Position numbers and translations under genes: made by a program
Assembly (NCBI GenBank): GCA_017549125.1
Contig: JAFYVL010000033.1
Location: 1-34,706, forward strand
From: Oscillospiraceae bacterium
GTDB taxonomy: Bacteria > Bacillota > Clostridia > Oscillospirales > Oscillospiraceae
DNA length: 34,706 bases
Direction: 5' to 3'
Part shown: one piece after another, positions 7,921-30,235 of the stretch
Numbering within the stretch: the stretch's first letter is position 1
How the letters are laid out: each line of letters opens with the position of its first letter
The notes under the pieces: generated by a model
What the model was told of the DNA's origin: nothing
The model's input: the letters and a program-made list of their open reading frames with translations, nothing else
The model's database searches: none

Positions 7921-8409
7921 GTTTTTCCTCCTAAAAAATATAAATTACATTTTAACACCTGCAAAATGATCTCCTGCAGGTACACATGCGGTCGTTTGCT
8001 GAGGGCATACAACCGCATAATTGTACGCATTTATTTTACAACGAATTCACAAGAAAAACAACATAGCATTACGCACAAAATCAGTTTACCAATTTTTTGC
8101 AAGTTGCACAAAAAGCCGCTGGTTTTTATTTATTTTGACCAAAATTTCCTTGCATTTGGCTAACCACGGTCTAAGCTGTGATATTGCAGGGTTTTATGGG
8201 CATTTTATCACATTCGTGCAGACACGTGTGCGTCAACTATGGACACATTTGATTCTCTCCCCTTTTTGCCGAAAAATTTTCCATTTTGCCGATTATACCT
8301 TAATTATATATTGCAATTCTGAGGGGTTGGTGGTATGATTTTCCTATCCATAATATAGTGTGAAGATATATTCTTCGCATGGATAAAAAACAGAAAGGAA
8401 ATGGAGAAC
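7921..8409. promoter_or_regulatory. Divergent intergenic region with inverted repeats
   Basis: 489 bases between the divergent binding-protein gene and the giant secreted-protein gene. Two operator-like inverted repeats lie close to the ABC operon: ACCTGCA (7957-7963)/TGCAGGT (7975-7981), and ATGCGGT (7986-7992)/ACCGCAT (8012-8018). The first overlaps the likely 5' leader of the minus-strand operon. No convincing -35/-10 pair was found for that operon. The AT-rich remainder (8020-8320) shows no gene; an ACACGTGT palindrome sits near 8223. Confidence 0.5.
8327..8356 (+). promoter_or_regulatory. Candidate promoter for the 1851-residue secreted protein
   Basis: TTGGTG (8327-8332), an 18-base spacer, TAATAT (8351-8356), about 54 bases before the start codon. 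Confidence 0.55.
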
Positions 8410-11400: not shown

Positions 11401-13965
11401 GGCGACACCATCGAGCTGCTGGCTGATGTCCTCGCTACGGAATATGTAGATATCTTCACCGCTAACAACGGTGAGGAAGAGCGTTCCATTACTCTGAATC
11501 TGAACGGCAACACCATTGTCCCCACTGCAGATTACACCTACAAGTACTATCCCCTGGTGTTCGTTGGCATCAACCAGACCCTGACCATCCAGAACGGCTC
11601 CATCATCGCTGACGAGCATGTGGCCATCGGTGCTTACGGCAAGGTTATTCTGGACAATGTCAATGTCAGCGTAAAGAACCCCTCCGAGGGTGAGCAGGCT
11701 GTCTGCATCTGGAACTGGGGTGAAGACGACGAATACTACCAGGATTGCCAGTACAAGATCACCGGCTCTGCCGAAATCACCGGCGGCAACATCACCGGCG
11801 GCATCCTGGCAGAAGGCGCTGTAAAGCTGAACGAAACCGCTGGCTTTGACAAGCTGTACCTGAACACCAAGACCGGCCACGGCAAGATCGATCTGCCCAC
11901 CGGCTACGGCCTGGTTAAGGAGAACGGCTACTACACCAACCTGCATGAGCACGAATTTGAAAACGGTGCATGCACCACCTGTGGTTTTAGTACCTCCTAT
12001 GTGGAGACCGACCTGGCGAACATCAAGTCCACCGATGTGGTCGTGATCACCATGACCAAGGACGGCACCACTTATGCGCTGACCAGCGCCAATGGCACAT
12101 CTGGTACGCCTGATGCTATTGAAGTCACCGTGAAGGATGGCACCATTATCAGCGATATTCCTGAAGCCCTGGAGTGGAATATTATCAACGAAAACGACAC
12201 TTTGACTATTTATACCAATGCAGATAACACCAAGTACCTGTACTGTATAAACGACACTACAGGCATTCGCGTTGGTCAATATGGCAATAGTGATCAAAAT
12301 AACACATTCAACATCTCTAGCGAAGGTTATTTGTATAACATTGGTCAGAAGCGGTATATCGGTGTTTATAATGGTAAAGATTGGCGCAGTTATACTACTC
12401 TTCACGATAATATCAAGGGCGAAACTCTGGCATTCTATGTACTGAAGACCTCCTGCGATCACACTAACAAGGAAGATCGTAGTGAGATCGCAGCAACCTG
12501 TATCGAAGCCGGTCACGCTGCAGGTAGCTACTGTCTGGATTGCGACAGCTATATCAGCGGCGGTGAATTGATCGACGCAATGGGTCACTCTTGGGGTGAT
12601 CCCACCACCAAGCCCGCTTCTTGTACCGAAAACGGCAAAAACATCTATCATTGTACCGTATGTAACAAGGTCAAGACAGAAACCATCAAGGCCGCCCATA
12701 CCTGGGACAACGGCACAGTAACCGTTGAAGCAACCTGTACCGAGGCTGGTGAAAAGACCACCACCTGTACTGTTTGTGGTAAGACCGAAACTGAAATCAT
12801 CGAAGCTATCGGCCATACTGAAATCACTGCTACTATTGATGCAACCTGTGCAAACGCTGGTTCTACCATCGTTTCCTGTTCTGTATGTAAAGCAGTAATC
12901 AGCAACACCGAAATCCCTGCAACCGGCAACCATGTATATAACAATGGCACTTGTACCGGTTGCGGTAAGACAGAGGAATCTCTGGCAGGTACTTATTACA
13001 TTGCCGCAAAGCGCAGCTCCGGCAACTACTGGTACATGACCTGCGATCTCGGCACTGCAAGCACAAAGCGTTATCAAGCCGAAGATACCGGCTTGACCAC
13101 CTTGCCTGCCGAAATTACAAATGCAGATGCTGACAAGGTATTTGTTATTGAGAAAGTTGACGGCGGCTACATTATTTATGCACAAGGTGTTGCTACCAAT
13201 AACTATCTGGGTTGGAGTTCTGGCAACTCTGGTGCGCTGGTAGCCAAGACAAGTGCAAAGGTTGTTACGATCACACCTTCCGCAAATGGAGCATATCAAA
13301 TTAAGTTTGACGACAGAAATCTTTCTCTAAACAATACAGCTAGTAACAACTATTTTGCATTCTATACTGGCACCCAGGTCAATGATCTGTATTTGATTCC
13401 TGTAAATGGCGAAATCAGTAGTTGTCAGCATATTAACACCACTACCACCTCTACCGCTACTTGTACCGAGGACGGTGTCGCAACCGTCACCTGTAACGAT
13501 TGTGGCAAAACCATCAGCACTACCAATGTTGCTGCTCTTGGCCACACCACCGAAAACGGCACTTGCGGCAACTGTGGCCAGACAATCGGCGGCACAACTC
13601 CTGCAGAGCCCAAGGTTGTACTGGAGATCACCGTGGGCGACTTCAACACAACGAGCTATGTTGCAAACAACAACACAAAAACCGAAAATGGATATAGCTA
13701 TACATCCTACCAGGTTATGAATCAGTCTAGTGTAATGCAGTGGCAAAAGAGCAAGGGTTATATTACCATTGACTCCAATGTATTTACCAAACTGGAACTG
13801 AAGGTTACTGCAGGTACATTCACCGTAACTGTAGGTGGTAAAACTGTAACTGGCACAACCACAAACGGTGTCACCACCTATGATTTGACCGGACTCACCG
13901 GACAGATCAAGATTTCCGTCGGTAGTGCAACCGGCAAGGTTGACTATTTAAAATTCTACAAATAA
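8410..13965 (+). CDS. Giant secreted multidomain protein with GLUG-like, beta-helix and Cys-rich repeats
   Basis: An 1851-residue exported protein of unknown function. The start at 8410 is preferred to ATG 8401 because AAAGGA is 10 bases from it but only one base from the earlier ATG. The signal peptide ends near AALA-AETS (residue 27). In order: an unnamed domain at about 80-295 shared with the protein at 23202-26783; a spacer; GLUG-like repeats at about 550-640 (GTFDGNGNTISNLY, GGGLFASV, TGGAIGEV); a beta-helix-like part at about 977-1165 starting YATVQDALNNAKDGDTIELL; module A at 1194-1347; Cys repeats at 1347-1526 (CTVCGK, CSVCKA, CTGCGK); module B at 1526-1671 (YYIAAKRSSGNYWYM); another Cys repeat; and a C-terminal beta domain ending VDYLKFYK. 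There is no LPXTG, SLH or dockerin. Modules A, B and the C-terminus use more AT-rich codons than the rest. A surface or matrix role is inferred. Confidence 0.85.
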   Translation: MQNKINRVLSLLLVVIMVLSMIPAALAAETSDSVAYAAENTTTGAQYADLNEAIATAQAGQIVRVLADAENVVYNNAGVIVDLNGCDLTNVTVAEGVTLTAIDSATDDYEGNYGSVTTDGNVAATVKTAEPKSYVAISENGSYSFHRYYASIAAISLQPSKVSLGYRAEFRGDEAVKNAVVSYGYELWANDNAHKTYSRTDALEKTSMTLRLSNILREGNDALNAMGSTATIGGNAFITLDLGNEQVTLYGTQQETTLRQVVEAVNATASQYGEAQLASVREMITTYSAWMMGWATENIFGSGNDTEGDGLKVEIVVDVNAENNILSENATMTYGDISATVPQGAVLENGVKQLVLTITEKAQSDSDVTEGEGETLIPLDVHISGISADNTAPIVICLGDILPKGLNIGNYDLFHVENGQTVSMTRVYTVAELDAHNEFYYDPATGSVTVAMASFSEITLRSNDENAWNGEIDTSWADKAVLEIANADQLAGFGKLVDDGNTFEGKTITLIHDIDLMGYEKDAEGNYMYEDGEKVRISFNPIGYGYLFNSATTGRVFMGTFDGNGNTISNLYQNGWDLNYTYGAMGGGLFASVANATIKNLTMDNAYIVMECVDMGTVVGYAQGNCVFENIIVKNSTLANYQRYTGGAIGEVSNGHHILKNVDVEASTTVGTLWGDFDASVGGIIGGKWAHSYDEVYGKDGKQRVTVYMENCDVAAKLDVYNDVTSAYQWYSYRRAGMLIGYSGESTSVNGRTEATAPYLTTVNCTVQYGDWVNYRYCEFNNTTSLNACYPWVRVQAGEFNGAYSNPRYGVPTFANNTLNTETHTLGDGCHVDGDGHDVLIVFNQLYGGGQGCYGGNTHVEQELGVTVIGQNGNAVVPTTKFQATGIDTIVTDTTVTLGDLFQAVDGVAIQDAYVYGFASPDDANASVRGTTATPYAGCNWQDLTIQFTGTGLAKVTISDYYYCQPTTIYVNVVAKAAQIGECEYATVQDALNNAKDGDTIELLADVLATEYVDIFTANNGEEERSITLNLNGNTIVPTADYTYKYYPLVFVGINQTLTIQNGSIIADEHVAIGAYGKVILDNVNVSVKNPSEGEQAVCIWNWGEDDEYYQDCQYKITGSAEITGGNITGGILAEGAVKLNETAGFDKLYLNTKTGHGKIDLPTGYGLVKENGYYTNLHEHEFENGACTTCGFSTSYVETDLANIKSTDVVVITMTKDGTTYALTSANGTSGTPDAIEVTVKDGTIISDIPEALEWNIINENDTLTIYTNADNTKYLYCINDTTGIRVGQYGNSDQNNTFNISSEGYLYNIGQKRYIGVYNGKDWRSYTTLHDNIKGETLAFYVLKTSCDHTNKEDRSEIAATCIEAGHAAGSYCLDCDSYISGGELIDAMGHSWGDPTTKPASCTENGKNIYHCTVCNKVKTETIKAAHTWDNGTVTVEATCTEAGEKTTTCTVCGKTETEIIEAIGHTEITATIDATCANAGSTIVSCSVCKAVISNTEIPATGNHVYNNGTCTGCGKTEESLAGTYYIAAKRSSGNYWYMTCDLGTASTKRYQAEDTGLTTLPAEITNADADKVFVIEKVDGGYIIYAQGVATNNYLGWSSGNSGALVAKTSAKVVTITPSANGAYQIKFDDRNLSLNNTASNNYFAFYTGTQVNDLYLIPVNGEISSCQHINTTTTSTATCTEDGVATVTCNDCGKTISTTNVAALGHTTENGTCGNCGQTIGGTTPAEPKVVLEITVGDFNTTSYVANNNTKTENGYSYTSYQVMNQSSVMQWQKSKGYITIDSNVFTKLELKVTAGTFTVTVGGKTVTGTTTNGVTTYDLTGLTGQIKISVGSATGKVDYLKFYK

Positions 13966-14600: not shown

Positions 14601-14640
14601 AACAAAACCTGTGCTATCGGTTGACAGCACAGGTTTTGTT
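14601..14640 (-). terminator. Intrinsic terminator of the rnf operon
   Basis: Perfect 15-bp stem AACAAAACCTGTGCT / AGCACAGGTTTTGTT with a 10-base loop, touching the rnfB stop codon. On the minus strand the 3' arm ends in GGTTTTGTTTT. Confidence 0.88.
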
Positions 14641-15506
14641 TATTTATTCTTCATGGATGCGCGGACGATGGCCAGAATTTCCTCGGGGGTGTCCACGGGG
14701 CTGGCGATGAGCTTTTTGGGGCAGACCGCCGCACACAGGCCGCACTCCGTACATTTGTCATAGTCAATGACCGCCAAATTCTTTTCCACCGTAATAGCAG
14801 CATGGGGGCAGATCTTGGTGCAAATGCCACAGCCGATACAACCCTGGGAACAGCCACGGACGGTGACCGCACCCTTGGCATGGGATGCGCAGGCGATGAT
14901 CACGTGCTTATCGTATGCCACAGGGATAATCAGATTGCGGGGACAAGCGGTGGCGCAAGCCATACAGCCCACACATTTTTCGCTGTCCACCTTTGCCACA
15001 CCGTCAACCACAGTGATAGCATCGTACTGGCAGGCTTTGACGCAGTTGCCATAGCCCAGACAGCCAAATTTACAAGCCAGCACGCCGTTGCCGCCCACCT
15101 TGGAGGCTGCCAGGCAATCCTTGAAACCTTCGTACTCAGCCTTTCGTCTGGCACCGGTGACCTTACCGCTCTCGTCCACACCCAGATAGCCGGAGCAGCG
15201 TACCAGCGCCACACGTCGGGTCTGCTCACCGATTTCTACACCCATGATCGCAGCCATAGCTTTGGCGCTTTCGTTACCGCCTGCGCCACACAGGCCGATC
15301 TCTGCCTCGCCTGCCAGCACAGCTTCTGCGTAGCCGGCGCAACCGGCATAGCCACAGCCGCCGCAGTTTGCACCGGGCAAAGCATCACTCAGCAGCTCCA
15401 ACCGAGGATCGGTTTCCACATAGAACATTTTGGATGCCGCACCCAGCACCAATCCGAAGATCAGACCCAGGCCGCCCAAAATACCTACCGCAATTAAAAT
15501 TTCCAT
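14640..15506 (-). CDS. rnfB: Rnf complex subunit RnfB (ferredoxin-binding iron-sulfur subunit)
   Basis: A 288-residue subunit of ferredoxin:NAD+ oxidoreductase, taken to be the entry point for electrons from reduced ferredoxin. An N-terminal membrane anchor (MEILIAVGILGGLGLIFGLVLG) is followed by the PF04060 [4Fe-4S] motif ANCGGCGYAGCAGYAEAV (about residues 46-63). Four Cys clusters of ferredoxin type come next: CKFGCLGYGNCVKAC, CVGCMACATACP, CIGCGICTKICP and CTECGLCAAVCP. It starts 12 bases after rnfA with AAGGAGGGG as ribosome binding site. It is the last gene of the operon, as in clostridial rnfCDGEAB clusters, and is followed by a terminator. Confidence 0.97.
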   Translation of the reverse strand: MEILIAVGILGGLGLIFGLVLGAASKMFYVETDPRLELLSDALPGANCGGCGYAGCAGYAEAVLAGEAEIGLCGAGGNESAKAMAAIMGVEIGEQTRRVALVRCSGYLGVDESGKVTGARRKAEYEGFKDCLAASKVGGNGVLACKFGCLGYGNCVKACQYDAITVVDGVAKVDSEKCVGCMACATACPRNLIIPVAYDKHVIIACASHAKGAVTVRGCSQGCIGCGICTKICPHAAITVEKNLAVIDYDKCTECGLCAAVCPKKLIASPVDTPEEILAIVRASMKNK

Positions 15507-15518
15507 ACTTGCCCCTCC

Positions 15519-16106
15519 TTAAAAGATCTTCAGACCGGAGAAGCCCATAAATGCCAGGGCAATCAGACCGGCCGCGATCAGCGCAAGGGGGTAACCCCTG
15601 AAGCACTGGGGGCAATCCGCCTTATCCACACGTTCACGGACGGATGCAAACAGCACGATGGCCAGGGTAAAGCCCAGACCGCCGCATGCACCGTTGATGA
15701 CGCTTTGCAGGAAATCGTATTCCTGCTGGGCATTGACCAATGCCACACCCAGCACAGCGCAGTTGGTAGTGATCAGGGGCAGGAAGATACCCAGCGCCTT
15801 ATACAAAGCAGGTACCATCTTCTTAAGGAACATTTCCACCACCTGCACGATGGAGGCAATGACCAGAATAAAGGCCACGGTCTGCATATACTGCAGTTCC
15901 AGGCGGATCAGCAGAAGATTTACCGCATAACAGGCCGCAGATGCCAGCGCCATTACAAAGGTCACCGCCATGCCCATGCCCAATGCGGTATCGATTTTCT
16001 TGGAAACACCCATAAATGGGCAAATGCCATAGAATTTCACCAGGATAAAGTTCTCCGACAGCACAGCGGAGATGAGAATACCCAACAAAACTTGTCCGTA
16101 TGTCAT
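15519..16106 (-). CDS. rnfA: Rnf complex membrane subunit RnfA
   Basis: A 195-residue integral membrane protein with six predicted spans, homologous to NqrE. Family signatures seen are [29 protein letters not shown]-type text at the N-terminus, with the Cys that in Rnf/Nqr helps hold an intramembrane iron centre (ICPF), and [15 protein letters not shown] in the middle, which carries the second such Cys (TTNC). With RnfE it forms the inverted-topology pair of the ion-translocating core. Its ATG overlaps the rnfE stop by four bases (ATGA), implying coupled translation. Length is normal for the family. Confidence 0.97.
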
Positions 16107-16744
16107 TTTCCGCCAGCCTCCTTTTTCTGATGATTCCGACGGCGGTTAAACCATTGGAAGAAGGCAATCACAAAGCCCAGGGTCAAGAATCCCCCCACAG
16201 GCTGCACCATCTGGGATGCAGGGTAACCCTCGGCAATGATGCGGTAACCTTCGCCACCGTTGAGCAGACCGCTGCCCAAAGTACCTGCTCCCAACAGCTC
16301 ACGGATCACGCACATGATCACCAGCGCCACCGTATAGCCAATGCCCTGGCACAGGCCGTCCACCGCAGAGGCCACCACGGTGTTTTTGGAAGCAAAGGCC
16401 TCCGCACGACCCAGGATAATACAGTTTACCACGATCAAGGGGATGAACATGCCCAGGCTTTCTGACAGGGTGGGGATATAGGCCTGCAGCAGCAGATCCA
16501 CCACCGTCACAAAACCGGCAATGATCACAATGTAGGCCGCAATTCGAATCTGAGAGGGAATCACCTTCCGCAGAGCCGAGATCAGCACATTGGAGCAGAT
16601 CAGAATGGCGGTCACGGAAAGACCCATGCCCACACCGTTGAATAAACTGGTGGTGGTTGCCAGCACGGAGCACATACCCAACAGCTGCACCAGCACCGGA
16701 TTCTTGGTCAGCAGGCCTTCTTTTAATTGTTTCTTAAAATCCAC
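16103..16744 (-). CDS. rnfE: Rnf complex membrane subunit RnfE
   Basis: A 213-residue integral membrane protein homologous to NqrD. It begins [20 protein letters not shown], the usual opening of RnfE, and contains [19 protein letters not shown], whose Cys matches the intramembrane iron-site position. It pairs with RnfA. The start is 12 bases downstream of rnfG with AGGAGG nearby, and the gene ends in a four-base overlap with rnfA. The basic tail ([14 protein letters not shown]) should be cytoplasmic. Confidence 0.97.
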
Positions 16745-16756
16745 AAAAAGACCTCC

Positions 16757-17296
16757 TTACCCTAAACTTTTCACAAATTCCAAAGCCGCATTGATGCCGG
16801 AAACGATGGTTCGGGAAGATCCGGTAGCACCGGTAATGGAGTCCACCGCTCCCCCATCCTGTTTCACAGCCAGTTCGCCGCTCATGCCGATAAACTGGTC
16901 ACGGAAGGCACGGCCTGCATCGGAATCCTCACCGGCAATAGCGCCGTAGCCGGGACTTTCAGAGCTGCTGACGATCACCAAGCCGGTGATCTGGCCGCTT
17001 CTGTCCACACCCACCATCATATTGATAGGCCCGGCAAAGCCCTGGGGGGCTACCAGCACCGCATAGCCGTATTCGCTTTCATAAGCACCGGTCACAATGC
17101 CCGTATCACCGGTCAGTTCCATCTTTTTGGCGTCGCCCTTCAGCACCTGAGAAACCGCATCATTGGATTTCTCCGCCCGAATGGCCGCAATGCGATCTTT
17201 TGTCAAGGCATTGACACCTGCCAGGGCTGCCGCCACCACAGAGGTAATCACCAACAAGGTAATGGTCAGCCGCAAAATAGACGCTTTCTGTTTCAT
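16757..17296 (-). CDS. rnfG: Rnf complex flavin subunit RnfG
   Basis: A 179-residue subunit with one N-terminal membrane segment (about residues 8-30) and an extracytoplasmic FMN-binding domain. The flavinylation motif SITGATGSS places the FMN-carrying threonine at Thr158. The start at 17296 is chosen because it makes the ATGA overlap with the rnfD stop; an upstream in-frame extension translates to a low-complexity shadow of rnfD. Covalent FMN attachment needs ApbE, which is not encoded in this window. Close upstream and downstream spacing places it firmly in the operon. Confidence 0.95.
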   Translation of the reverse strand: MKQKASILRLTITLLVITSVVAAALAGVNALTKDRIAAIRAEKSNDAVSQVLKGDAKKMELTGDTGIVTGAYESEYGYAVLVAPQGFAGPINMMVGVDRSGQITGLVIVSSSESPGYGAIAGEDSDAGRAFRDQFIGMSGELAVKQDGGAVDSITGATGSSRTIVSGINAALEFVKSLG

Positions 17297-18285
17297 GCCT
17301 TGCTCGCCTCCTTCTTCGGCGCACCGAATTTCTTCGGTCTGCCGATCCGATCCAGCAGAACCACACAGCAATTCATCACCAGGATCGCATAGCTGACACC
17401 TTCCGGGTAGCTGCCGAAATAGCGGATCACCATGGTCAGCACACCACAGCCAATGCCAAATACGATCTGTCCCAGTTTGGTGACCGGGCTGGTCACATAG
17501 TCCGTTGCCATAAAGATGGCGCCCAGCATCAAACCGCCGGAGCAAAGCTGGGCAGCACACCAGGTAAGCCGGTCATTGCCCTGGGGGAACAACAGCGCGA
17601 TCACCGCCACCGTGCCCACAAAGCTCAGAGGGATTCTCAGGGTGATCACCCGGCGCACCATCAGGTACACCAGTCCCAACAGCAACAGCACCACAGAGGT
17701 CTCGCCAATACAGCCCCCTACCCTGCCCAGGAACATATCCAGCACAGAATGGGAGATCGCACCCTCTTTCATAGCCGCCAGAGGGGTTGCGCTGCTGACA
17801 GCATCCACCGTGGGAGCAAGGCTCACAGCCTTGTCAAAACCGGGGGCTGTCCATTGGGTCATAAAGGGCCAGCTGATCATAAACGCACGAGCCGCCAGCG
17901 CAGGATTCACAATATTTCTGCCAATGCCGCCAAAGAGCTGTTTGACCACCACAATGGCAAAGAATCCACCGATCACCACACCCCACAGAGGCACGGTCAC
18001 AGGGCATACAAATGCCAAAAGCACACCGGTGACCATGGCGCTTAAGTCATAGACCCTGCAGGTGAATTTCATGATACGGCTGCACAGCCACTCAAAATAC
18101 ACACAGGATGCCACGCTGACCAAAGTCACCAGCAATGCCCGAAATCCAAAGAAATACACACTGCCGATCAGCGCAGGACACAAGGCGATCAGCACATCAC
18201 GCATAATGGTCTGGGTAGTAAGTTTGGCATGTACATGGGGGGAGCTGGAAATGGTCAGCTCATAGAAATATTTCATTTGTGCCAT
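17293..18285 (-). CDS. rnfD: Rnf complex membrane flavin subunit RnfD
   Basis: A 330-residue integral membrane subunit (NqrB/RnfD family) with about nine to ten predicted spans. It starts ELTISSSPHVHAKLTTQTIM, the usual RnfD opening with the SSPH motif. GRNIVNPALAARAF is strongly conserved in the family. The flavinylation site is SSATPL with Thr167 as the FMN acceptor. Near the C-terminus are MATDYVTSP and IRYFGSYPEGVSYAIL, also family hallmarks. It starts 12 bases after rnfC and overlaps rnfG by four bases. Confidence 0.96.
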   Translation of the reverse strand: MAQMKYFYELTISSSPHVHAKLTTQTIMRDVLIALCPALIGSVYFFGFRALLVTLVSVASCVYFEWLCSRIMKFTCRVYDLSAMVTGVLLAFVCPVTVPLWGVVIGGFFAIVVVKQLFGGIGRNIVNPALAARAFMISWPFMTQWTAPGFDKAVSLAPTVDAVSSATPLAAMKEGAISHSVLDMFLGRVGGCIGETSVVLLLLGLVYLMVRRVITLRIPLSFVGTVAVIALLFPQGNDRLTWCAAQLCSGGLMLGAIFMATDYVTSPVTKLGQIVFGIGCGVLTMVIRYFGSYPEGVSYAILVMNCCVVLLDRIGRPKKFGAPKKEASKA

Positions 18286-18297
18286 ATCTGCTCCTCC

Positions 18298-19614
18298 TTA
18301 TTTTTTTGCTTTGTTCTGGGCATCCCGAATTTGCTGTTTGCCAGCACGGAAGCCCAATACCAGCGGCACACCTGCAGGACACACATAGGCGCAGCTGCCG
18401 CATTCAATACAATCCAGCATATCCAATGCCTTCATTTCCTCTGCATCGCCGGTGTACATGGATTTGTACATCAGCACCGGGGTCAGGTGCATGGGACACA
18501 CATCGATACAACGACCACAGCGGATACACCGGGCGGTATCCACCACGTATTTATTGCTCTTGCCCAAAATGGTCACCGCATTACAGCCCTTGATCACCGG
18601 CACAGCCAGATCATACTGGGCAACACCCATCATAGGGCCACCGGACAGCACTTTATAAGGATTTTCCCGAGTGCCCACCGCTTCCAAAAGGTCATTAAAG
18701 CATGTGCCGATGGGAACTAACAGGTTCTTGGGCTGCATGACGATATCACCGGACACAGTGACGATCCGACGAACCAGGGGCATGCCCGCATAGACCGCAT
18801 CGTGGATGGCCTTACAGGTGGCCGCATTGAACACGGCGCAGCCCACTGCCGCAGGCAGACCACCGGAAGGCACTTGTCTGCCGGTAATGGCCTGGATCAG
18901 CTGTTTCTCTGCGCCCTGGGGGTAGCGTGCAGGCAGAATATCCAACCGGACACCCTGGGGCAAATACTTCTGCAAAGCGGCAATGGCATCGGGCTTATTG
19001 TCCTCAATGCCAATATGGGCTGTTTCCAGACCCAGGATCTTCATGACGATCCCCAAACCGGACAGCACCTGCTCCGGATGCTCCTGGCACAGGCGGTCAT
19101 CGGCGGTGATATAGGGCTCGCACTCAGACACATTCATAATAATGGTATCCACCTTGCCCAGACCGGAGCTGAGCTTCACATGGGTGGGGAAAGTTGCGCC
19201 GCCCATGCCCACCACACCGCACTGGCGAATGATGGCCATCAGTTCCTCGGGGGTTAAGGCATCCACCGCTTCCCGGGTACGGGGTTTAATATCCGGAGAT
19301 TGTTCTCCTTGATGGTCATTTTCAATGACCACGCACATGACCATAGTACCGCTGGTGTGAGGACGGGGTTCTACCGCCTTCACCGTACCGGACACAGGAC
19401 TATGTACCGGCACGCACAGACCTTGGTTATCGCCCAGCATTTGTCCTACCAGTACCCGATCGCCTTTTTTCACGCAAGGCTGGCAGGGCGCACCAATATG
19501 CTGCACCATGGGAACTACCAAAATATCCGGCTCCGGGAACACCTGCACCGGACTGTTTTCAGCATAATGCTTATTCTCTTTGGGATGAATGCCGCCAAAG
19601 ATAGAAAAAGCCAT
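18298..19614 (-). CDS. rnfC: Rnf complex NADH/FMN-binding subunit RnfC
   Basis: A 438-residue peripheral subunit that carries the NAD+ reaction site. The start ATG at 19614 (MAFSIFGGIHP) is preferred to an in-frame GTG three codons earlier because AGAGGTG is correctly spaced for the ATG. An N-terminal barrel-sandwich domain contains VPVHSPVSGTV, then comes the FMN/NADH-binding Rossmann-like part with GVVGMGGATFPTHVKL. Two ferredoxin clusters at about residues 365-425 read CIRCGRCIDVCP and CIECGSCAYVCP. It is the first gene of the operon, behind a promoter at 19678-19706. The C-terminal extension with extra quinone-like repeats found in proteobacterial RnfC is absent, as normal for clostridia. 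Confidence 0.97.
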   Translation of the reverse strand: MAFSIFGGIHPKENKHYAENSPVQVFPEPDILVVPMVQHIGAPCQPCVKKGDRVLVGQMLGDNQGLCVPVHSPVSGTVKAVEPRPHTSGTMVMCVVIENDHQGEQSPDIKPRTREAVDALTPEELMAIIRQCGVVGMGGATFPTHVKLSSGLGKVDTIIMNVSECEPYITADDRLCQEHPEQVLSGLGIVMKILGLETAHIGIEDNKPDAIAALQKYLPQGVRLDILPARYPQGAEKQLIQAITGRQVPSGGLPAAVGCAVFNAATCKAIHDAVYAGMPLVRRIVTVSGDIVMQPKNLLVPIGTCFNDLLEAVGTRENPYKVLSGGPMMGVAQYDLAVPVIKGCNAVTILGKSNKYVVDTARCIRCGRCIDVCPMHLTPVLMYKSMYTGDAEEMKALDMLDCIECGSCAYVCPAGVPLVLGFRAGKQQIRDAQNKAKK

Positions 19615-19677
19615 AAACTTCACCTCTGATGTAATTTTTTAACAATTTTTAACAATTCAACCCTTGTAACAACCCAC

Positions 19678-19944: not shown

Positions 19945-21237
19945 ATGGAACAAGCCCTTTACAACACCTATGTGGATATTCTGAAAACCCAGTTAGTACC
20001 TGCGATGGGTTGTACCGAGCCCATCGCTGTGGCATACGCCGCCGCTCTGGCCGCCCGAGCCCTGCGGAAAGCGGACGGTGGTCGGGAATTTATCCGCAAT
20101 GTACATATCTGCGTCAGCAGTAATATCATCAAGAATGTAAAAAGCGTGATCGTGCCCAACACCGACGGACTCCACGGATTGGAAGCCGCCGCTGCTGCCG
20201 GCATCGTGGCCGGTGACCCGGACAGCAAGCTGTTGGTCATCTCCCAGGTTTCGGATGCCCAGAAGGAGCAGATCCGGGATTTCCTGCAGGACGCAGAATT
20301 CACCGTTGTGGAATCTGATTCCGGTGAGCTGTTTGACATCCTCATTACCTTGTCTTCTGCTTCCCACACCGCCCAGGCTCGCATTGCCGGCACTCACACC
20401 AATGTGGTGCGCATCGCCAGCAACGGCACTACGGAATTCGAAAAGACCATGGCGCCGGAAGCCAACGAAGAACACAGCCAGTTGGAGGCTCTGCAGATCG
20501 ATAAGATCGTAGAATTTGCCCAAACTGTGGATATTGCAGATGTGCAAGAGACTTTGGATCGTCAGATCCAATGCAATATGGCCATTGCCCAGGAAGGTCT
20601 GACCAATTCCTATGGCGCAAGAATCGGCCAGGTGCTGCTGAAGGCCCGTGGCAACGACCCGGTCACCCGTGCTAAGGCCTATGCCGCCGCCGCATCCGAT
20701 GCCCGCATGGGCGGTTGCGAAAAGCCCGTGGTCATCAACTCCGGCTCCGGCAACCAGGGCATCACCACCTCCATTCCCGTGGTGATCTACGCAGAACATC
20801 TGGGCTCTACCCAGGAGCAGCTATACCGGGCATTGGTAATTTCCAATTTGGTCACCCTCCACTTGAAATGCGGTATCGGCCCTCTGTCCGCCTATTGCGG
20901 CGCCATCAGCGCCGGCTGTGGCGCAGCTGCCGGTGTCACCTACCTCTATGGCGGTGGCTTTAAAGAGATCGCCCACACGGTGGTCAACGCTCTGGCCATT
21001 AACTCCGGTGTGATCTGCGACGGCGCAAAGGCAAGCTGTGCAGCAAAGATCGCCTCTGCAGTAGAAGCGGGTCTTTTGGGCATGGAAATGTACCGCCAGG
21101 GCAGTCAGTTCCACGGCGGTGACGGCATCGTCAGCAAGGGTGTGGAAAACACCATCCGCAACGTCAGCCAGTTAGCCAGCGAAGGCATGCGCAAAACCGA
21201 CACCGAGATCATCAAGATCATGCTGGCACAAACCTAA
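19945..21237 (+). CDS. L-cysteine desulfidase / CyuA family (UPF0597) protein
   Basis: A 430-residue cytoplasmic iron-sulfur lyase of the CyuA/CdsB family, also called UPF0597 and distantly related to serine dehydratase alpha chains. Known members split L-cysteine to pyruvate, ammonia and sulfide. Visible signatures are PAMGCTEPIAVAYAAA near the N-terminus (Cys23), NSGSGNQGITTSIPV in the centre, and the C-terminal Cys group LKCGIGPLSAYCGAISAGCG and ICDGAKASC, which supplies candidate [4Fe-4S] ligands. Length is typical. It is a single gene with its own promoter and terminator, divergent from rnf. The substrate could also be serine or another beta-substituted amino acid; cysteine is favoured by family knowledge only. 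Confidence 0.87.
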   Translation: MEQALYNTYVDILKTQLVPAMGCTEPIAVAYAAALAARALRKADGGREFIRNVHICVSSNIIKNVKSVIVPNTDGLHGLEAAAAAGIVAGDPDSKLLVISQVSDAQKEQIRDFLQDAEFTVVESDSGELFDILITLSSASHTAQARIAGTHTNVVRIASNGTTEFEKTMAPEANEEHSQLEALQIDKIVEFAQTVDIADVQETLDRQIQCNMAIAQEGLTNSYGARIGQVLLKARGNDPVTRAKAYAAAASDARMGGCEKPVVINSGSGNQGITTSIPVVIYAEHLGSTQEQLYRALVISNLVTLHLKCGIGPLSAYCGAISAGCGAAAGVTYLYGGGFKEIAHTVVNALAINSGVICDGAKASCAAKIASAVEAGLLGMEMYRQGSQFHGGDGIVSKGVENTIRNVSQLASEGMRKTDTEIIKIMLAQT

Positions 21238-21284: not shown

Positions 21285-22787
21285 TTATTTTGCGGGGCTG
21301 GAGGTGCGCAGCTGGACATCATGGTAGCCACCCTCGATGATGGAGGTGGAGGAAACCAGCGTCAGCTTGGCATTCTTCTGCAGGTCGGGCAAGTTCAGCA
21401 CACCACAGTTGCACATGGTGGACTTGACCTTGTAGAGGCTGTTTGCCACATTATCGTGGAGAGAGCCTGCGTAAGTAACATAGGAGTCAACGCCTTCCTC
21501 GAAGCTGAGCTTGGATGCGCCGCCCAGGTCATAACGCTGCCAGTTACGGGCACGGTTAGAGCCCTCGCCCCAGTACTCCTTCATGTATGCGCCATTGACC
21601 ATGACCTTGGGAGTGGGAGACTCGTCGAAACGAGCAAAGTATCTGCCCAGCATCATGAAGTCTGCGCCCATGGCCAGAGCCAGGGTCATGTGGTAATCGT
21701 GAACGATACCGCCGTCGGAGCAGATGGGCACATAGATGCCGGTCTCCTTGAAGTATTCGTCACGGGCTGCGGCAACCTCGATCAGAGCAGTTGCCTGACC
21801 TCTGCCGATACCCTTGGTCTCACGGGTAATACAGATAGAGCCGCCACCGATACCGACCTTCACAAAGTCAGCACCAGCCTTTGCCAGGAACAGGAAACCA
21901 TCTCTGTCAACTACGTTACCGGCACCGATCTTAACTGTATCGCCATAGTTCTCACGAACCCAGGCGATGGTCTTTTCCTGCCAACAGGTGTAACCCTCAG
22001 AGGAGTCGATACACAGAACGTCTGCGCCAGCCTCCAGCAGAGCGGGAATACGCTGGGCATAGTCACGGGTATTGATACCTGCGCCTACCAGGTAACGCTT
22101 TGCCTGGTCCAACAGTTCCAGGGGATGTGCCTTGTGGGAAGAATAGTCCTTACGGAAGACGAAGTACATCAGATGATCGTCCTCGTCCACGATGGGCAAG
22201 CTGTTGAGCTTGTTCTCCCAGATAATATCATTGGCTTCCTTCAGAGAAGTGCCCAAAGGAGCGGTGATCAGCTTTGCACGGGGGGTCATGAAGGTCTCAA
22301 CAGCCTCGTTGCCCTCCATACGGCTCACACGGTAGTCACGGCTGGTGACAATGCCCAGCAGCTTGCCGTTTGCAGTACCGTCATCGGTAATGGCCACAGT
22401 AGAGAAGCCGTTCTCTTCCTTCAGAGCCAGCACATCCCGCAGCGTGTGGGCAGGTGTCAGGTTGGAGGCAGAAGCCACAAAACCGGCCTTATAGCCCTTG
22501 ACCTTGGCTACCATAGCAGCCTGGGATTCAATGCTCTGAGAACCGAAGATGAAGCTCAAACCGCCCTCCTTTGCCAAGGCAATTGCCAAGGTATCATTGG
22601 AAACGGACTGCATAATGGCGGAAGTCATGGGGATGTTCAAGCTGATTGCAGGTTCTTCACCCTTACGGTACTTGACCAAGGGTGTACGCAGAGAAACGCG
22701 GTCGGGAATGCAATCCTCAGAAGAGTATCCGGGGATCAGCAAGTACTCACTAAAGGTGCGGCTGGGCTCAGAATAATAGAATGCCAT
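21285..22787 (-). CDS. guaB: IMP dehydrogenase, Tritrichomonas-like type
   Basis: A 500-residue enzyme oxidising IMP to XMP with NAD+, the first committed step to GTP. The barrel is interrupted by two CBS domains at about residues 105-220 ([21 protein letters not shown] and [21 protein letters not shown] regions). The K+/active-site loop reads [20 protein letters not shown], with catalytic Cys319; Asp261 lies in CIDSSEG; the mobile flap [17 protein letters not shown] supplies Arg418 and Tyr419; Glu431 follows in FEEGVDSYV. This is not the flap usual in bacterial GuaB, where the text near it is YRGMGSLGAM-like, but the form known from the protozoan Tritrichomonas foetus, and the residue numbers coincide. 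It is a single gene, with GGAGG upstream, a promoter at 22837-22865 and no visible riboswitch. Confidence 0.95.
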
Positions 22788-23201: not shown

Positions 23202-26200
23202 TTATGCTGTTGCTTCTACAGGAGCCCAATCCTTAATGTTATTGGTCTCGCCCAGCCATGCGGACATAATATCAGCATACTGTGCATACAGGCCGTAAAC
23301 TGCACTCTTCTGATCATCGTTCAGATCGGTCAACTCATTGACTTCCTTAATGGTGCTCTTCATCGTGGTAGTTCTGGCGCTGGTGGTAGCTTCCACTTCC
23401 TGACCGTCAATATTAAGGATCAGGAATGCTTCACCATAAATGGTCATCTCGCCACCGTTGTTTGCCATGATACTATGCAGACGCAGGGTCATACCCTTGT
23501 CGAAGCCGGCAGAAGTACGAGTGCTGACGCAATTCTCATCGACCCACATATGGAAGCCACGTGAAACGACCGCACTCTGCACCACTTCGTCGCCATCGAA
23601 CACAGCCTTATAACCCAAAGCATCCTTCTTGGCATCCAGGCTAACCGCAGCAATACGTGCCATGTAACGGTGAGCGGAGTAGCTGCCGTCCTCGTTCTGC
23701 AGAGTCACGAAGTGCAGAGTATCGGAACCAATGACAGTATGGGTAATATACTCCATAATGCCGTTAATCTCGCCGCTAAACTTACCACACTTGCTTGCAT
23801 CGTATAATTTGTTGGCCCCATCTGCCAGATACAGGGTTACGCCCTCGGCCACAGTTGCATTGGCAACGGTCTTGCCGTTCAGGTTCAGCACAGCATCAAT
23901 GGACAGAACACCTGCATTTTCCAGATCGGCATTTACAGTATAGTAGGAAACACCAGACTTAGCCTCTGCGCTGATAGCGGTCAGGTCTGCACCGCCACAG
24001 GTCACATCGTGGTTTGCGTTGAAGCCCTGGATTGCAGCATTGTCTGCATACAGATCGCCTTCACGCTCGGTCAGAACATAACCGGTGCTGTTCATGTAGA
24101 TAAAGCCACGGTTGGTATCATTGACACCGGCAGCCAGCTTGCCTGCACCGGTGAGCTTGATCTCTTCCTTGTCTGTATTCAGACCAATGGAAGCATAACG
24201 GGTCATAGCGATACCGGAAACGGTGGGCAGACCCTCTTCCTCACGGTTTGCAACCTCGGTCAGAGCAGAAATATCCACCATTGCGTCTGCATTCTCGGTC
24301 ACATCCAGGATGATGCCGTTGGTCAGAGCAGCGGTACCATTGTAACGCTCATTGCCGTTGAATTCCTTGTCCAGCTTCACAGCACCAACCAGGCTCAAGC
24401 TGCCATGGTTGTGAATGGTGGTGCCCTGGGTGCCCCAGTTTACGAAGGTGGAATCCTTCACAGTAACTACACCGTTCTTGGCAACATGCAGAACACGGCC
24501 GTTTGCACCGCCGCAGGTCTTTGCAGTTACGTTCTCGATGGTAGCATTGGCATTGCCGATATACAGCGCACCGCCATTAACTGCATTACCGCCGATCAGA
24601 GTAGTACCATTGAAGCTTGCCTCGTTGGGAGTACGCTCAGTACTTACCACAACGTCGCCTTCCTTCACTTCATCGACCTTATCATTACCCCAGGCAATGC
24701 AGATGTTACCGCCGTTGCCGTCCATGCGCTTGCCACCCTCGCTGATCAGCTTGGTGTCACCCACGTTACGGCCATACTGTGCGACCATGGCCTTGTATGC
24801 ATCGTCGCCGGTAGTGGTCTCGTACAGTCTGCCACCCTGGGCTACAGAGTAAGTACCGCCAACGAAGTTGATCTTGTAGTTGCCTTCCATGTAGACATTG
24901 CCGCCGTTTTTATTGGCCTGACCGTTATCACAGGTCACATTCTCCAGCTTCACAACACCAACCTTGGCGATGTACAGGTTACCGCCGTTGGTTTCCGCAG
25001 TACCATTGGCAACGGTAGTGCCGCTGATGGTCAGTCTGCGGGTAGCGGTCATGCTGGAGTGGGTGGAGTAAATGTTACCGCCATTGTTAGCTGCACCGCC
25101 GGTGATAGAACCGCCAGTGAACTTAACAGTAGGAACATTATATGTGTAGATGTTACCACCGGCACCGATAGCAACACCGTTCTCGATGATCACATCGGTA
25201 GCCAGCAGCTGTGCACCGGTGTTTCTCATAGAGATATTGCCGCCATTGTTAGCTGTACCGCCGGAAAGGGTAGTACCCTCCAGGGTCAGATCGATAGCAT
25301 CCGCAAAAATATTACCGCCGTTAACATTAGCCTTACCACCGGAAATGGTGATCGCACCAATGGACAGGTCGGAATGCACATACAGGTTGCCGCCGTTGTT
25401 ATGAGCAACACCGTCGGTGACCTGGATTGCAAAGCCTTCTGTGGTTACATCAGCAGCAATATAGATATTACCGCCGTCGTTGGCTTCACCCAGAGTAACC
25501 GTACCGCTCTTGAGATTCAGATTGCTGCCGGAATCCACATAGATGTTACCGCCGTTACCCCAAGTGATGGTCTCGGTGGGGTTACCCTCGGCATCGACAC
25601 CGATTTCCACCAGCTTAGCCAGACCGCCGGTCACAGTAGTGCCGTCCAAGGTAAAGGTATTAGCCTTATCTGCGCTGCTCTCTACATAGATATTACCACC
25701 CTTGGAGGTAGCAACACCATTGGAGATCGTACCACCCTTCAGGCCGGTAGTGGGGTTAGTCTGATAGGATGCGATATTGCCGCCCATAGCAGCCTTACCG
25801 CCGGTGACCAGAGCGTTGTCGCTCATAGCAAATACGCAACCGTTGGTGGTGTTCTGCAGGTAGATGTTACCGCCCTTTTCGGTAGCAACGCCATTCTGCA
25901 CAGTACCACCGGAGATGGTCAGATCCACCCTGCGGTTTGCACTCTGATCATCCTTAATATAACTGCCGTTGGCAGCAATGTTACCGCCGTTTACAGCAGA
26001 GCCGTCCTTAATGATACCGCCGTAAATGTTCAGCGCACCACCAAGTACATAGATGTTACCACCGTCAGCAGTAGCCTTACCACCTTCGATAGTACCACCG
26101 AACAGATTAAATGTACCCACATGGGTGGCAGAGCCCTGGTAAGACTTAACCAGCACATTACCACCATAGCCTACATTGGGGCTGCCGGTAGTAATGGTAC

Positions 26201-26783
26201 CGGAATCACCGTTCTTAATGGTGCCGCCGTACATATTGAATGTACCGCCGTCAACCACAACAGGACGAGCGTTATAACCAGCAGAAATCAGACCGCTGAG
26301 AATACCGCTGTACAGGTTCACAACGCCCTTGTTGTAGCCTGCCCAAACACTATAGCCGGTGCCATCAGCCTTGCTGGAACGGATGGCGCCGCCGCCCTGG
26401 CAGTCGCAGATGGTCAGGGTGTTGCCGTTCTGTACCTTAAAGGGAGTATTGGAACGGAAAGTAAAGCCATTCAGACAAATGGTGATGTTCAGCTTCTTGG
26501 TTCCGGAGCCAGTCAGATTTCTGGTTTCGCCCGTGTTCGCGGTCAGATAGTAGTGACCGCCATCGACCAGGGTCATGCCCTTCACATAGGGTTCCCAGAC
26601 GATGGTCTCATCGCAGACATGGTCTGCAGGTTTTGCCTCAGAGCGCACGCAAACGCAGTGGCTATGGGCTGCGGGTTCTGCGGGAGTGGTTTCTTCCTCA
26701 GTTGCCATAGCGGGGGTAGCCACGATCATCAGACCCAGCACCAGCACCACAGCCAGAAGAAGACTCAGTAGATTCTTTTTCAT
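23202..26783 (-). CDS. Large secreted beta-helix protein with 16 GGN[ILV] coil repeats
   Basis: An 1193-residue exported protein of unknown function. The signal peptide ends at about PAMA-TEEE (residue 27). From about residue 80 to 760 it is built of coil-like repeats of roughly 20-40 residues, each containing GGN followed by I, L or V and usually Y (GGNIYVLGG, GGNIYLQN, GGNLYVHS, GGNIYTYN and others; 16 counted), plus one GGALYIGN. The alternating GG-N-I-Y and short hydrophobic strands resemble right-handed beta-helix surface proteins. Residues 966-1193 are an unnamed domain shared with the giant protein at 8410-13965 (HRYMARIAAVSL, GYKAVFDGDEVVQSAVVS). There is no LPXTG, SLH or other anchor. 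It has GGAGGG upstream of the start and its own promoter and terminator. An adhesive or matrix role is inferred. Confidence 0.85.
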   Translation of the reverse strand: MKKNLLSLLLAVVLVLGLMIVATPAMATEEETTPAEPAAHSHCVCVRSEAKPADHVCDETIVWEPYVKGMTLVDGGHYYLTANTGETRNLTGSGTKKLNITICLNGFTFRSNTPFKVQNGNTLTICDCQGGGAIRSSKADGTGYSVWAGYNKGVVNLYSGILSGLISAGYNARPVVVDGGTFNMYGGTIKNGDSGTITTGSPNVGYGGNVLVKSYQGSATHVGTFNLFGGTIEGGKATADGGNIYVLGGALNIYGGIIKDGSAVNGGNIAANGSYIKDDQSANRRVDLTISGGTVQNGVATEKGGNIYLQNTTNGCVFAMSDNALVTGGKAAMGGNIASYQTNPTTGLKGGTISNGVATSKGGNIYVESSADKANTFTLDGTTVTGGLAKLVEIGVDAEGNPTETITWGNGGNIYVDSGSNLNLKSGTVTLGEANDGGNIYIAADVTTEGFAIQVTDGVAHNNGGNLYVHSDLSIGAITISGGKANVNGGNIFADAIDLTLEGTTLSGGTANNGGNISMRNTGAQLLATDVIIENGVAIGAGGNIYTYNVPTVKFTGGSITGGAANNGGNIYSTHSSMTATRRLTISGTTVANGTAETNGGNLYIAKVGVVKLENVTCDNGQANKNGGNVYMEGNYKINFVGGTYSVAQGGRLYETTTGDDAYKAMVAQYGRNVGDTKLISEGGKRMDGNGGNICIAWGNDKVDEVKEGDVVVSTERTPNEASFNGTTLIGGNAVNGGALYIGNANATIENVTAKTCGGANGRVLHVAKNGVVTVKDSTFVNWGTQGTTIHNHGSLSLVGAVKLDKEFNGNERYNGTAALTNGIILDVTENADAMVDISALTEVANREEEGLPTVSGIAMTRYASIGLNTDKEEIKLTGAGKLAAGVNDTNRGFIYMNSTGYVLTEREGDLYADNAAIQGFNANHDVTCGGADLTAISAEAKSGVSYYTVNADLENAGVLSIDAVLNLNGKTVANATVAEGVTLYLADGANKLYDASKCGKFSGEINGIMEYITHTVIGSDTLHFVTLQNEDGSYSAHRYMARIAAVSLDAKKDALGYKAVFDGDEVVQSAVVSRGFHMWVDENCVSTRTSAGFDKGMTLRLHSIMANNGGEMTIYGEAFLILNIDGQEVEATTSARTTTMKSTIKEVNELTDLNDDQKSAVYGLYAQYADIMSAWLGETNNIKDWAPVEATA

Positions 26784-28867: not shown

Positions 28868-30235
28868 TTACAGGAAAATATACTTCAAAATGAACAGCAG
28901 AGCCAGCACATACATCAAAGGCTTGACCTGCTTTGCCTTGCCGGTGAACAGGTTCAGCAGCACATAGGAAATGATACCCAGGCTGATGCCCTCAGAAATA
29001 CTATAGAACATGGGCATAGCAATGATGGCAATGTAGGCAGGAATGGCCTCGGTCATATTGTCGCCGTCAAAGCTGATTTCTGTCACAGAGCTTACCATCA
29101 AGAAACCAACCATGATCAGAGCAGGTGCAGTAGCAAAGGAAGGAATGGTGGTGAACAGAGGTGCAAACAAGGTGGACAGCAGGAACAGCAGGCCGGCAAC
29201 CATAGCGGTCAGACCGGTGCGGCCACCGGCAGAGACACCGGAAGCAGATTCCACAAAGGTAGTCACGGTGGATGTACCCAGAACAGCACCGGCAGAAGTA
29301 CCGATGGCATCAGCCATCAGCGCAGGCTTGATGCCGGGCAACTTGCCGTCCTGATCCAGCATTTTGGCCTTGGTTGCCACGCCGATCAGAGTACCCAGGG
29401 TATCAAACAGATCCACGAACAGGAATGCAAAGATCACCACGATGAAATCCAGGATCTTGATGCTGCCGAAATCCACCTTCAAGCACTGGCCGAAGGTCTC
29501 GCCCAGCTTGGAGAAGTCCATGGAGATGTACTGGCTGGGGATCAAGGAATAGAAACCGGCTTCTGCATTGGGAACGTAAATACCGGCCAGCTGGCAAACA
29601 ATACCCAGCACCCAAGTACCCACGATACCGAACAAAATAGAACCCTTTACATTACGGATATGTAACACAGCGGTCAGCAGAACGCCAACCAATGCCAGCA
29701 GAGCGGTAATGCCCTGGGTGGAGAAATTCTCGGTGAATTTGTTAATGGTCACCAGAGTAGAACCATCGTCCACCACCAGCTTTGCATTCTGCAGACCGAT
29801 GAAGGCGATGAACAGGCCAATACCCACGGATACGCCACGCTTTAAGGTCAAGGGAATGGCATTGAAAATGGCTTCACGGACATTGGTCAGAGACAGCACG
29901 ATAAAAATCAAGCCCTCTACAAACACCGCCAGCAGAGCCACCTGCCAGCTATAGCCCATGTTACCTACCACCGTAAATGCCAGGTAAGCATTCAGACCCA
30001 TACCTGCAGACAGCACGAAGGGCATATTTGCCATCAGCGCCATACAGGCTGTGCCAATGAAAGAAGCAATGGCAGTTGCCAGCAACACGGCGGTGGCATC
30101 CATACCGGCTTTGCTCAAAATGTCCGGGTTAACCGCCAGGATGTAAGCCATGGTCATGAAGGTGGTGATACCGGCCACCACTTCGGTTTTTACATTGGTA
30201 TTCTTTTGTTTTAGCTTAAAAATCTTTTCCAGCAT
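28868..30235 (-). CDS. NCS2 family purine permease (AzgA/PbuG type)
   Basis: A 455-residue inner membrane transporter with 12-14 predicted spans, taking up adenine, guanine or hypoxanthine with protons in characterised relatives. Signatures of the AzgA-like branch are TEVVAGITTFMTMAYILAVNP at the N-terminus (interrupted here by none of the usual gaps), SAGMGLNAYLAF, VDLFDTLGTLIGVATKA, and SASGVSAGGRTGLTAMVAG. It starts 24 bases after the stop of the lipoprotein gene at 30260, so the two are probably one transcript. No purine riboswitch fits in the small gap. The exact base specificity cannot be read from sequence. Confidence 0.92.
   Translation of the reverse strand: MLEKIFKLKQKNTNVKTEVVAGITTFMTMAYILAVNPDILSKAGMDATAVLLATAIASFIGTACMALMANMPFVLSAGMGLNAYLAFTVVGNMGYSWQVALLAVFVEGLIFIVLSLTNVREAIFNAIPLTLKRGVSVGIGLFIAFIGLQNAKLVVDDGSTLVTINKFTENFSTQGITALLALVGVLLTAVLHIRNVKGSILFGIVGTWVLGIVCQLAGIYVPNAEAGFYSLIPSQYISMDFSKLGETFGQCLKVDFGSIKILDFIVVIFAFLFVDLFDTLGTLIGVATKAKMLDQDGKLPGIKPALMADAIGTSAGAVLGTSTVTTFVESASGVSAGGRTGLTAMVAGLLFLLSTLFAPLFTTIPSFATAPALIMVGFLMVSSVTEISFDGDNMTEAIPAYIAIIAMPMFYSISEGISLGIISYVLLNLFTGKAKQVKPLMYVLALLFILKYIFL

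Follow-up and report, generated by a model that had tools for sequence, protein, structure and literature searches.

The IMP dehydrogenase (IMPDH) of the cattle parasite Tritrichomonas foetus is an assayed enzyme and a model for the IMPDH mechanism (PMC2525682; papers are cited throughout for the excerpts consulted). As described there, Cys319 makes the intermediate E-XMP*, Arg418 of the flap activates water and a Thr321-Glu431 relay constitutes a second path, while Glu431 is worth a 5-10-fold tolerance to mycophenolate (PMC2525682). The 'eukaryotic' cofactor site, as opposed to that of bacteria, is represented by two structures, one of them from the T. foetus enzyme (PMC4342496). In the 'eukaryotic' mode, the adenosine of NAD is bound within the same subunit, between His253 and Phe282 (human) or Arg241 and Trp269 (T. 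foetus), whereas in the V. cholerae enzyme it is found in the neighbouring subunit (PMC4342496). In the same source, the selectivity of a set of inhibitors is ascribed to a motif, Ala-165/Tyr-358' in Cryptosporidium IMPDH and Ala-253/Tyr-445' in B. anthracis; the V. cholerae enzyme, with Ser/Leu at this motif, is reported to be resistant to them (PMC4342496).

Family membership and catalytic residues

We analyzed a window of 34,706 nucleotides, which is the whole stretch of DNA considered here, from contig JAFYVL010000033.1 of an Oscillospiraceae bacterium (Table 1). An earlier note on this DNA had described one of its genes as a bacterial IMPDH collinear with the T. foetus enzyme. The coordinates given for this gene were right and the coding strand is the minus strand; a plus-strand reading of the same interval lacks the active-site and flap texts that had been quoted.

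Table 1. Features of the window, with positions numbered from its first nucleotide.
Feature	Position	Strand	Remarks
IMP dehydrogenase, T. foetus / PRK07107 type, 500 aa	21285..22787	minus	ATG start, stop included; NF005493, TIGR01302 and 1AK5 scores
Active-site loop, residues 308-327 (Lys310, Cys319, Thr321)	21807..21866	minus	Translation and residue counts
Flap, residues 406-424, with the Arg418-Tyr419 dyad	21516..21572	minus	Translation and residue counts
CBS (Bateman) insert, about residues 105-221	22125..22475	minus	Pfam CBS match at 164-214; identity split
Serine-dehydratase-alpha-like gene	19945-21237	plus	Convergent with and downstream of the IMPDH gene
1193-aa ORF without Pfam match	23202-26783	minus	Upstream of the IMPDH gene
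rnfCDGEAB operon	14640-19623	minus	NCBIfam match for each of the six genes; RnfG scores 101.6 bits, slightly below the cut-off of 102
Very long ORFs (1651 and 1854 aa; 1193 and 920 aa)	8344-13965; 23202-26783	both	No Pfam match at E 0.001
Nucleobase permease (Xan_ur_permease)	28868-30235	minus	Same strand as, and about 6 kb upstream of, the IMPDH gene

The encoded protein and T. foetus IMPDH (1AK5) can be aligned gaplessly over residues 1-493, with 336 of 493 positions identical (68%). The T. foetus enzyme is the top match of the window protein in the PDB (772 bits), followed by Lmo0132 of Listeria (8EBC). Human and canonical bacterial enzymes reach about one third of the T. foetus score: 258 bits for the chain IMPDH2, which we take to be the human enzyme, and 261 bits for the best canonical bacterial chain. 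Against 36 canonical sequences from the window's phylum, identity is 38% at most. The pairwise comparison that the earlier note had proposed thus yields a value far above those of typical bacterial or eukaryotic IMPDHs and, judged from the alignment, the likeness is far beyond chance. Identity is lower in the CBS insert (64 of 121 residues, positions 101-221) than in the barrel (272 of 372).

Curated NCBIfam models place both proteins in the same family. The model NF005493 (PRK07107.1, 'IMP dehydrogenase'; cut-off 585 bits) is matched at 934.9 bits by the window protein, over profile positions 1-496 of 502, and at 924.8 bits by T. foetus IMPDH. On TIGR01302, the model of canonical GuaB, both remain below the cut-off of 481.5 bits (345.4 and 353 bits, respectively). 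The window protein and T. foetus IMPDH are therefore members of one named bacterial family, hereafter type-2, and the window gene is a new member of a known family rather than a rarity; any view of this enzyme as special to this bacterium has to be given up.

Residues were compared on an alignment of 172 rows, comprising 129 type-2 proteins, five actinobacterial members, 36 canonical sequences, T. foetus IMPDH and the window protein. Rows with identical proteins were merged, as were the window's own copies (L001, L110, L169), and 79 of the 129 type-2 rows came from a search for closest relatives, so that kin of the window protein are over-weighted in these counts. Counted from the first Met, Asp261, Cys319, Thr321, Arg418, Tyr419 and Glu431 of the window protein carry the same numbers as in T. 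foetus, as follows from the gapless alignment over 1-493; the numbering that the earlier note had given for Cys319, Asp261 and Arg418-Tyr419 is thereby borne out. D261, K310, C319, T321, D358, R418, Y419 and E431 are found in all 129 distinct bacterial type-2 proteins and in 5/5 actinobacterial members, and the window protein has the catalytic Cys319 and Thr321 as well as the flap dyad. The quoted active-site and flap texts are present and, as had been claimed, unlike the usual bacterial forms: position 315 is Pro in 36/36 canonical sequences and Gly in 128/129 type-2 proteins, position 408 is Met in 36/36 and Glu in 129/129, and position 264 is His in 36/36 and Glu or Asp in 129/129. The N-terminal (YYxEPxxTFxEYLLIPG) and C-terminal (STMCNCGxL, LVSSxSIxEGG) patterns given in the earlier note also hold, the last one reading LVSSVSIVEGG in T. 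foetus.

These residues suggest that the window protein has IMP:NAD+ activity. By homology to the T. foetus enzyme, Cys319 would attack C2 of IMP and a hydride would pass to NAD+, yielding E-XMP*. After the departure of NADH, the flap with Arg418-Tyr419 would close. XMP would be freed by water that Arg418 activates, the Thr321-Glu431 relay offering a second path, and GuaA would then convert XMP to GMP.

We detected no sign of protist contamination at the IMPDH contig from its genes, its GC3 values or the titles of related sequences. A profile search identified the rnf operon on the same contig, which counts against such contamination. GC3 of the IMPDH gene is 0.66, compared to 0.51-0.68 in ten other ORFs of the window, and the best 80 of 594 relatives (92-77% identity) all bear bacterial titles (Oscillospiraceae, Clostridia, Eubacteriales, Bacillota and the like). 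Rfam yielded no match anywhere in the window, and hence no purine riboswitch or other known RNA; across 20 related loci it found only one SAM and one TPP element, neither of them upstream of the IMPDH gene on the same strand.

Distribution, genomic context and probable replacement of canonical GuaB

Members of the NF005493-type family were found in Bacillota, Bacteroidota (one record) and Actinomycetota. At 50% identity or more, a plasmid collection contributed sequences from Monoglobus, Subdoligranulum, Listeria, Parabacteroides, Streptomyces, Embleya and Mycolicibacterium, four of which were scored on the NF005493 profile (Listeria 1020, Parabacteroides 961, Streptomyces 663 and Mycolicibacterium 703 bits). 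Actinobacterial members share 50-54% identity with the window protein. On two Streptomyces plasmids (L176 and L177, 3986-5479 in both), genes for amino-acid adenylation (peptide synthetase) are found close to a divergent type-2 IMPDH gene; according to the literature excerpts, fungi that make mycophenolate are known to carry additional IMPDH copies in product clusters.

The NF005493 cut-off was passed by none of 14 control genomes and by 38 of 299 genomes from the window's phylum (Bacillota, as its named relatives indicate), a sample that includes the window's own genome (71.5% complete) beside others selected for at least 90% completeness. TIGR01302 was passed by 265 of the 299 by tally, with 34-35 below its cut-off. 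For 29 of the 38 genomes with NF005493, the best E-value of the canonical model was 1e-97 to 1e-109, which is the level of type-2 cross-matches, and type-2 is thus the sole IMPDH found. The other nine presented E-values of 1e-191 or lower and possess both kinds.

Within the window's family, we searched 130 genomes, the window's own and 129 selected for at least 80% completeness, with the window protein as query (type-2 at 69% identity or more, canonical at 35-40%, none at E 1e-20). Type-2 was found in 53, canonical GuaB only in 62, neither in 15 and both in none. Among the 53, three were matched only in part, one in two pieces, and one (G409) had two. The 15 genomes without either kind at this threshold, several of them 95-100% complete, are perhaps guanine auxotrophs or encode a more distant enzyme. 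In the window's genus, the two other genomes (99% complete each) have the T. foetus type only, and two genera (g270 and g272) contain one genome of each kind apiece. This mutual exclusion, in counts uncorrected for the kinship of the genomes, is the pattern that would be expected of two interchangeable enzymes for one step. In the window's own genome, a single IMPDH-family protein was detected; guaA is present on another contig (C76), together with a 1244-aa ORF of the AIR-synthase family that has a PurL-like size.

The window IMPDH gene is set apart from purine-synthesis genes, and its two immediate neighbors (Table 1) recur in none of the 51 relatives with 4 kb available on both sides; RnfC and RnfD recur in one of these 51 each. 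Among the 80 near relatives (the best 80 of 594), purL is found on the same strand 16-315 bp upstream of the IMPDH gene in 21, with purD and purH further upstream in 18 of these; in 14 of the 80, the next gene downstream, at a distance of up to 46 bp, encodes formate-tetrahydrofolate ligase. Neighbors were counted by direct protein searches and some loci are short, which makes these counts lower bounds. On one example locus each, NCBIfam recognized FGAM synthase (1854 bits), PurD (532 bits), a short, stand-alone AICAR formyltransferase (717 bits) and formate-tetrahydrofolate ligase (943 bits). The purH gene upstream of one type-2 IMPDH gene (L021, 3808-4992) encodes the short AICAR formyltransferase NF005492, not the bifunctional protein. 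Finally, 19 of the 80, including many of the window's nearest kin, present upstream, instead of purL, a gene on the same strand for a 306-aa protein without NCBIfam name (e.g., L004, 621-1538). That a gene for the step that consumes IMP is placed within an IMP-producing operon constitutes good evidence for what the family does.

The window protein might instead be a paralogue with a side function, such as a GMP reductase or another IMPDH-like enzyme, whose genome encodes a canonical GuaB in a part not assembled. The nine phylum genomes with both kinds, the lack of purine-synthesis genes directly beside the window gene and the incompleteness of its genome, in which a canonical gene could have been missed if this genome is taken alone, all agree with such a scenario. 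We nevertheless regard it as quite unlikely: none of the 130 family genomes carries both kinds, purL adjoins the gene in a quarter of the near relatives (21/80), the T. foetus homologue is itself an assayed IMPDH, and the window protein has the Arg-Tyr dyad and the full flap, both of which GMP reductase lacks according to the excerpt consulted (PMC2525682). Based on the sole-IMPDH counts, the mutual exclusion in the family and the adjacency of purL, the T. foetus-type gene therefore most likely replaces canonical GuaB.

Overall, we estimate a probability of roughly 0.88 that the window gene provides the working IMP dehydrogenase (GuaB activity) of this bacterium, as a member of a second, T. 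foetus-like family that replaces canonical GuaB in many Clostridia-like gut bacteria and from which the T. foetus gene was most likely acquired by lateral transfer. A gut bacterium thus appears to make guanine nucleotides with the kind of enzyme used by a cattle parasite and not with the one typical of bacteria. This suggests that drugs against IMPDH meet two different targets among bacteria.

Origin of the T. foetus gene

T. foetus IMPDH is closer to several bacterial proteins than to the window protein. Identity reaches 73.6% in one genome (G214), 72.4% in a second (G387), 72.2% in a third (G049) and 72.0% in three more records (G347, L074 and L049, the last two being looser relatives of the window), compared to 68% for the window. 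With the 36 canonical GuaB sequences, it shares 33-40% identity. We found no full-length match above 74% in 398 genomes of the phylum, nor in samples from the order of G214 (21 genomes) and from that of G387 (73 genomes); partial matches reached 76% over 309 residues and 75% over 334 residues. The best genome match scored 834 bits. In the PDB, T. foetus IMPDH scored 649 bits against the CBS-less Lmo0132 chain, up to 255 bits against canonical bacterial chains and 202-230 bits against chains named IMPDH 1 or 2, presumably mammalian. Eukaryotic IMPDHs were compared through these PDB-chain scores, and the trees are composed of bacterial sequences and T. foetus.

All type-2 sequences, T. foetus included, are separated from the canonical ones by a branch with 100/100 support. 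T. foetus is the first branch of the window's clade (100/99) when the tree is rooted on Actinomycetota (54 rows, canonical rows excluded) or on Parabacteroides (65 rows, with four actinobacterial rows removed and 15 new ones added); a further row set comprised 100 rows. Rooted on canonical sequences (62 rows after thinning, with eight canonical rows and the long row L187 omitted), the tree draws T. foetus beside the other clade (92/88); in this tree as well, a 100/99 branch has T. foetus on the window's side. On these same 62 rows, a sister position of T. foetus to the whole set of bacterial members sampled was not rejected by an AU test (p = 0.519). On the 54 rows, its placement apart with Actinomycetota gave p = 0.075. 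With regard to the phylogeny proposed in the earlier note, canonical GuaB falls on a separate side and many bacterial members are nearer to T. foetus (up to 74%) than canonical sequences are (40% at most), but a basal position of T. foetus is not rejected.

The trees fix neither root nor donor, and the direction of transfer is suggested by the distribution rather than by the trees. T. foetus is the only eukaryote known in the family, as judged through the PDB, against members in Bacillota, Bacteroidota and Actinomycetota. Transfer of the IMPDH gene from a bacterium to the protist is the simplest reading, and in this way a bacterial family member most likely gave rise to the T. foetus gene. That T. 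foetus as first branch is not rejected under the canonical root would also fit an origin of the family in parabasalids with subsequent spread to bacteria. This direction is very unlikely given a single known eukaryote against three bacterial phyla, and T. foetus is much closer to the window protein (68%) than the actinobacterial members are (50-54%). As to the anaerobic gut clostridium proposed as donor group, the comparison singles out no donor: several lineages (72-74%) tie above the window's 68%. An XP_ accession cited for T. foetus IMPDH (PMC12959148) suggests that the gene is truly eukaryotic.

Convergence of flap and active site on the T. foetus sequence in an otherwise canonical GuaB is a practically negligible reading of the window protein: although the protein shares the reaction family and 38% identity with the best canonical sequences, this reading is refuted by its failure at the TIGR01302 cut-off, by the gapless full-length identity of 68% that includes the CBS part, and by the 100/100 separation of canonical rows in the tree.

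The earlier note had stated that the protozoan enzyme has long been thought to be of bacterial origin, for which we found no confirmation in the literature excerpts examined. No placement of the T. foetus gene in the bacterial family was found in the excerpts on its origin (PMC4053834, PMC2688927, PMC12612818, PMC12428144, PMC12959148, PMC4338043, PMC9462843, PMC6336804, PMC4427161), which amounts to a weak negative. A tree of 95 sequences has been built after a BLAST search with T. foetus IMPDH (PMC2525682). NCBI's model implies that T. foetus IMPDH belongs with the bacterial family, a link that was not found stated in the excerpts. The replacement pattern, the purL operon and the point on the cofactor site were likewise not found in them, the operon not having been a subject of the search.

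Cofactor site, inhibitors and comparison with known enzymes

The window protein possesses both Arg241 and Trp269, the stacking pair of T. foetus. Trp269 is present in 129/129 type-2 proteins, and position 241 is Arg in 105, Lys in 11 and Leu in 13, such that the pair is found in 105/129 (116 when Lys241 is allowed). Position 269 is Tyr in four of the five actinobacterial members, and a basic/aromatic pair at 241/269 occurs in only 1/36 canonical sequences. NAD+ adenosine is thus predicted to lie in the same subunit between Arg241 and Trp269 of the window protein, unlike in canonical bacterial IMPDH where the neighboring subunit is used. This cofactor pose is what the two residues would lead one to expect, and by residues the NAD-adenosine site of T. 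foetus is a trait of a widespread bacterial family.

The columns of the inhibitor motif (263 and 460) are Ala and Tyr in 36/36 canonical sequences and in none of the 129 type-2 or the five actinobacterial proteins; the window protein has Ser263 and Asn460. Column 460 was equated with Tyr445 of the B. anthracis enzyme, which lies outside the alignment, by its spacing from a conserved Glu and by the all-Tyr canonical column. The earlier expectation that this GuaB should resemble T. foetus in its response to inhibitors therefore stands, as a prediction, for compounds directed at the Ala/Tyr motif and for the NAD-adenosine site. As to mycophenolate, Lys310 and Glu431 are also present in 36/36 canonical sequences and would therefore not mark off the window protein's response from that of other bacterial IMPDHs.

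These observations make it fairly probable that same-subunit binding of NAD, the 'eukaryotic' mode, does not constitute a eukaryotic trait, as 1MEW, one of the two structures cited for it, represents a bacterial-family enzyme. A sizeable share of gut Clostridia-like bacteria would then bind NAD+ in this manner and, lacking the Ala/Tyr motif, should be blind to the bacteria-selective inhibitors built on it, with canonical and T. foetus-type GuaB swapping even within a genus. If T. foetus IMPDH is a bacterial-family enzyme, the contrast becomes one of two IMPDH families, both of them present in bacteria. If true, this changes which bacteria motif-directed IMPDH inhibitors should hit.

Among known systems, we found no difference between the window protein and the family NF005493/PRK07107 to which it belongs. 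T. foetus IMPDH (P50097; 1AK5, 1MEW, 1PVN) has the same residues at the catalytic and NAD-adenosine positions checked; it differs in being the product of a protist gene and in having Glu, Gln and Pro where the window protein has Cys268, Thr324 and Thr438. Lmo0132 of Listeria monocytogenes (8EBC), about 74% identical to the window protein, is of the same family (record L174, 1020 bits). Listeria presumably also has a canonical GuaB. Lmo0132 has been listed with purine-synthesis genes (PMC3443086). Canonical bacterial GuaB (TIGR01302) shares the catalytic residues, as well as Lys310 and Glu431 in T. foetus numbering, but presents Ala263, Tyr460, Met408 and His264, the first two of which are absent from type-2. 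Finally, Cryptosporidium IMPDH is likewise a protist IMPDH of bacterial origin (PMC4427161) and, unlike the T. foetus type, carries the Ala/Tyr motif (PMC4342496); it therefore derives from the other, canonical type. If our reading is true, the origin of the T. foetus gene constitutes a testable case beside that of Cryptosporidium.
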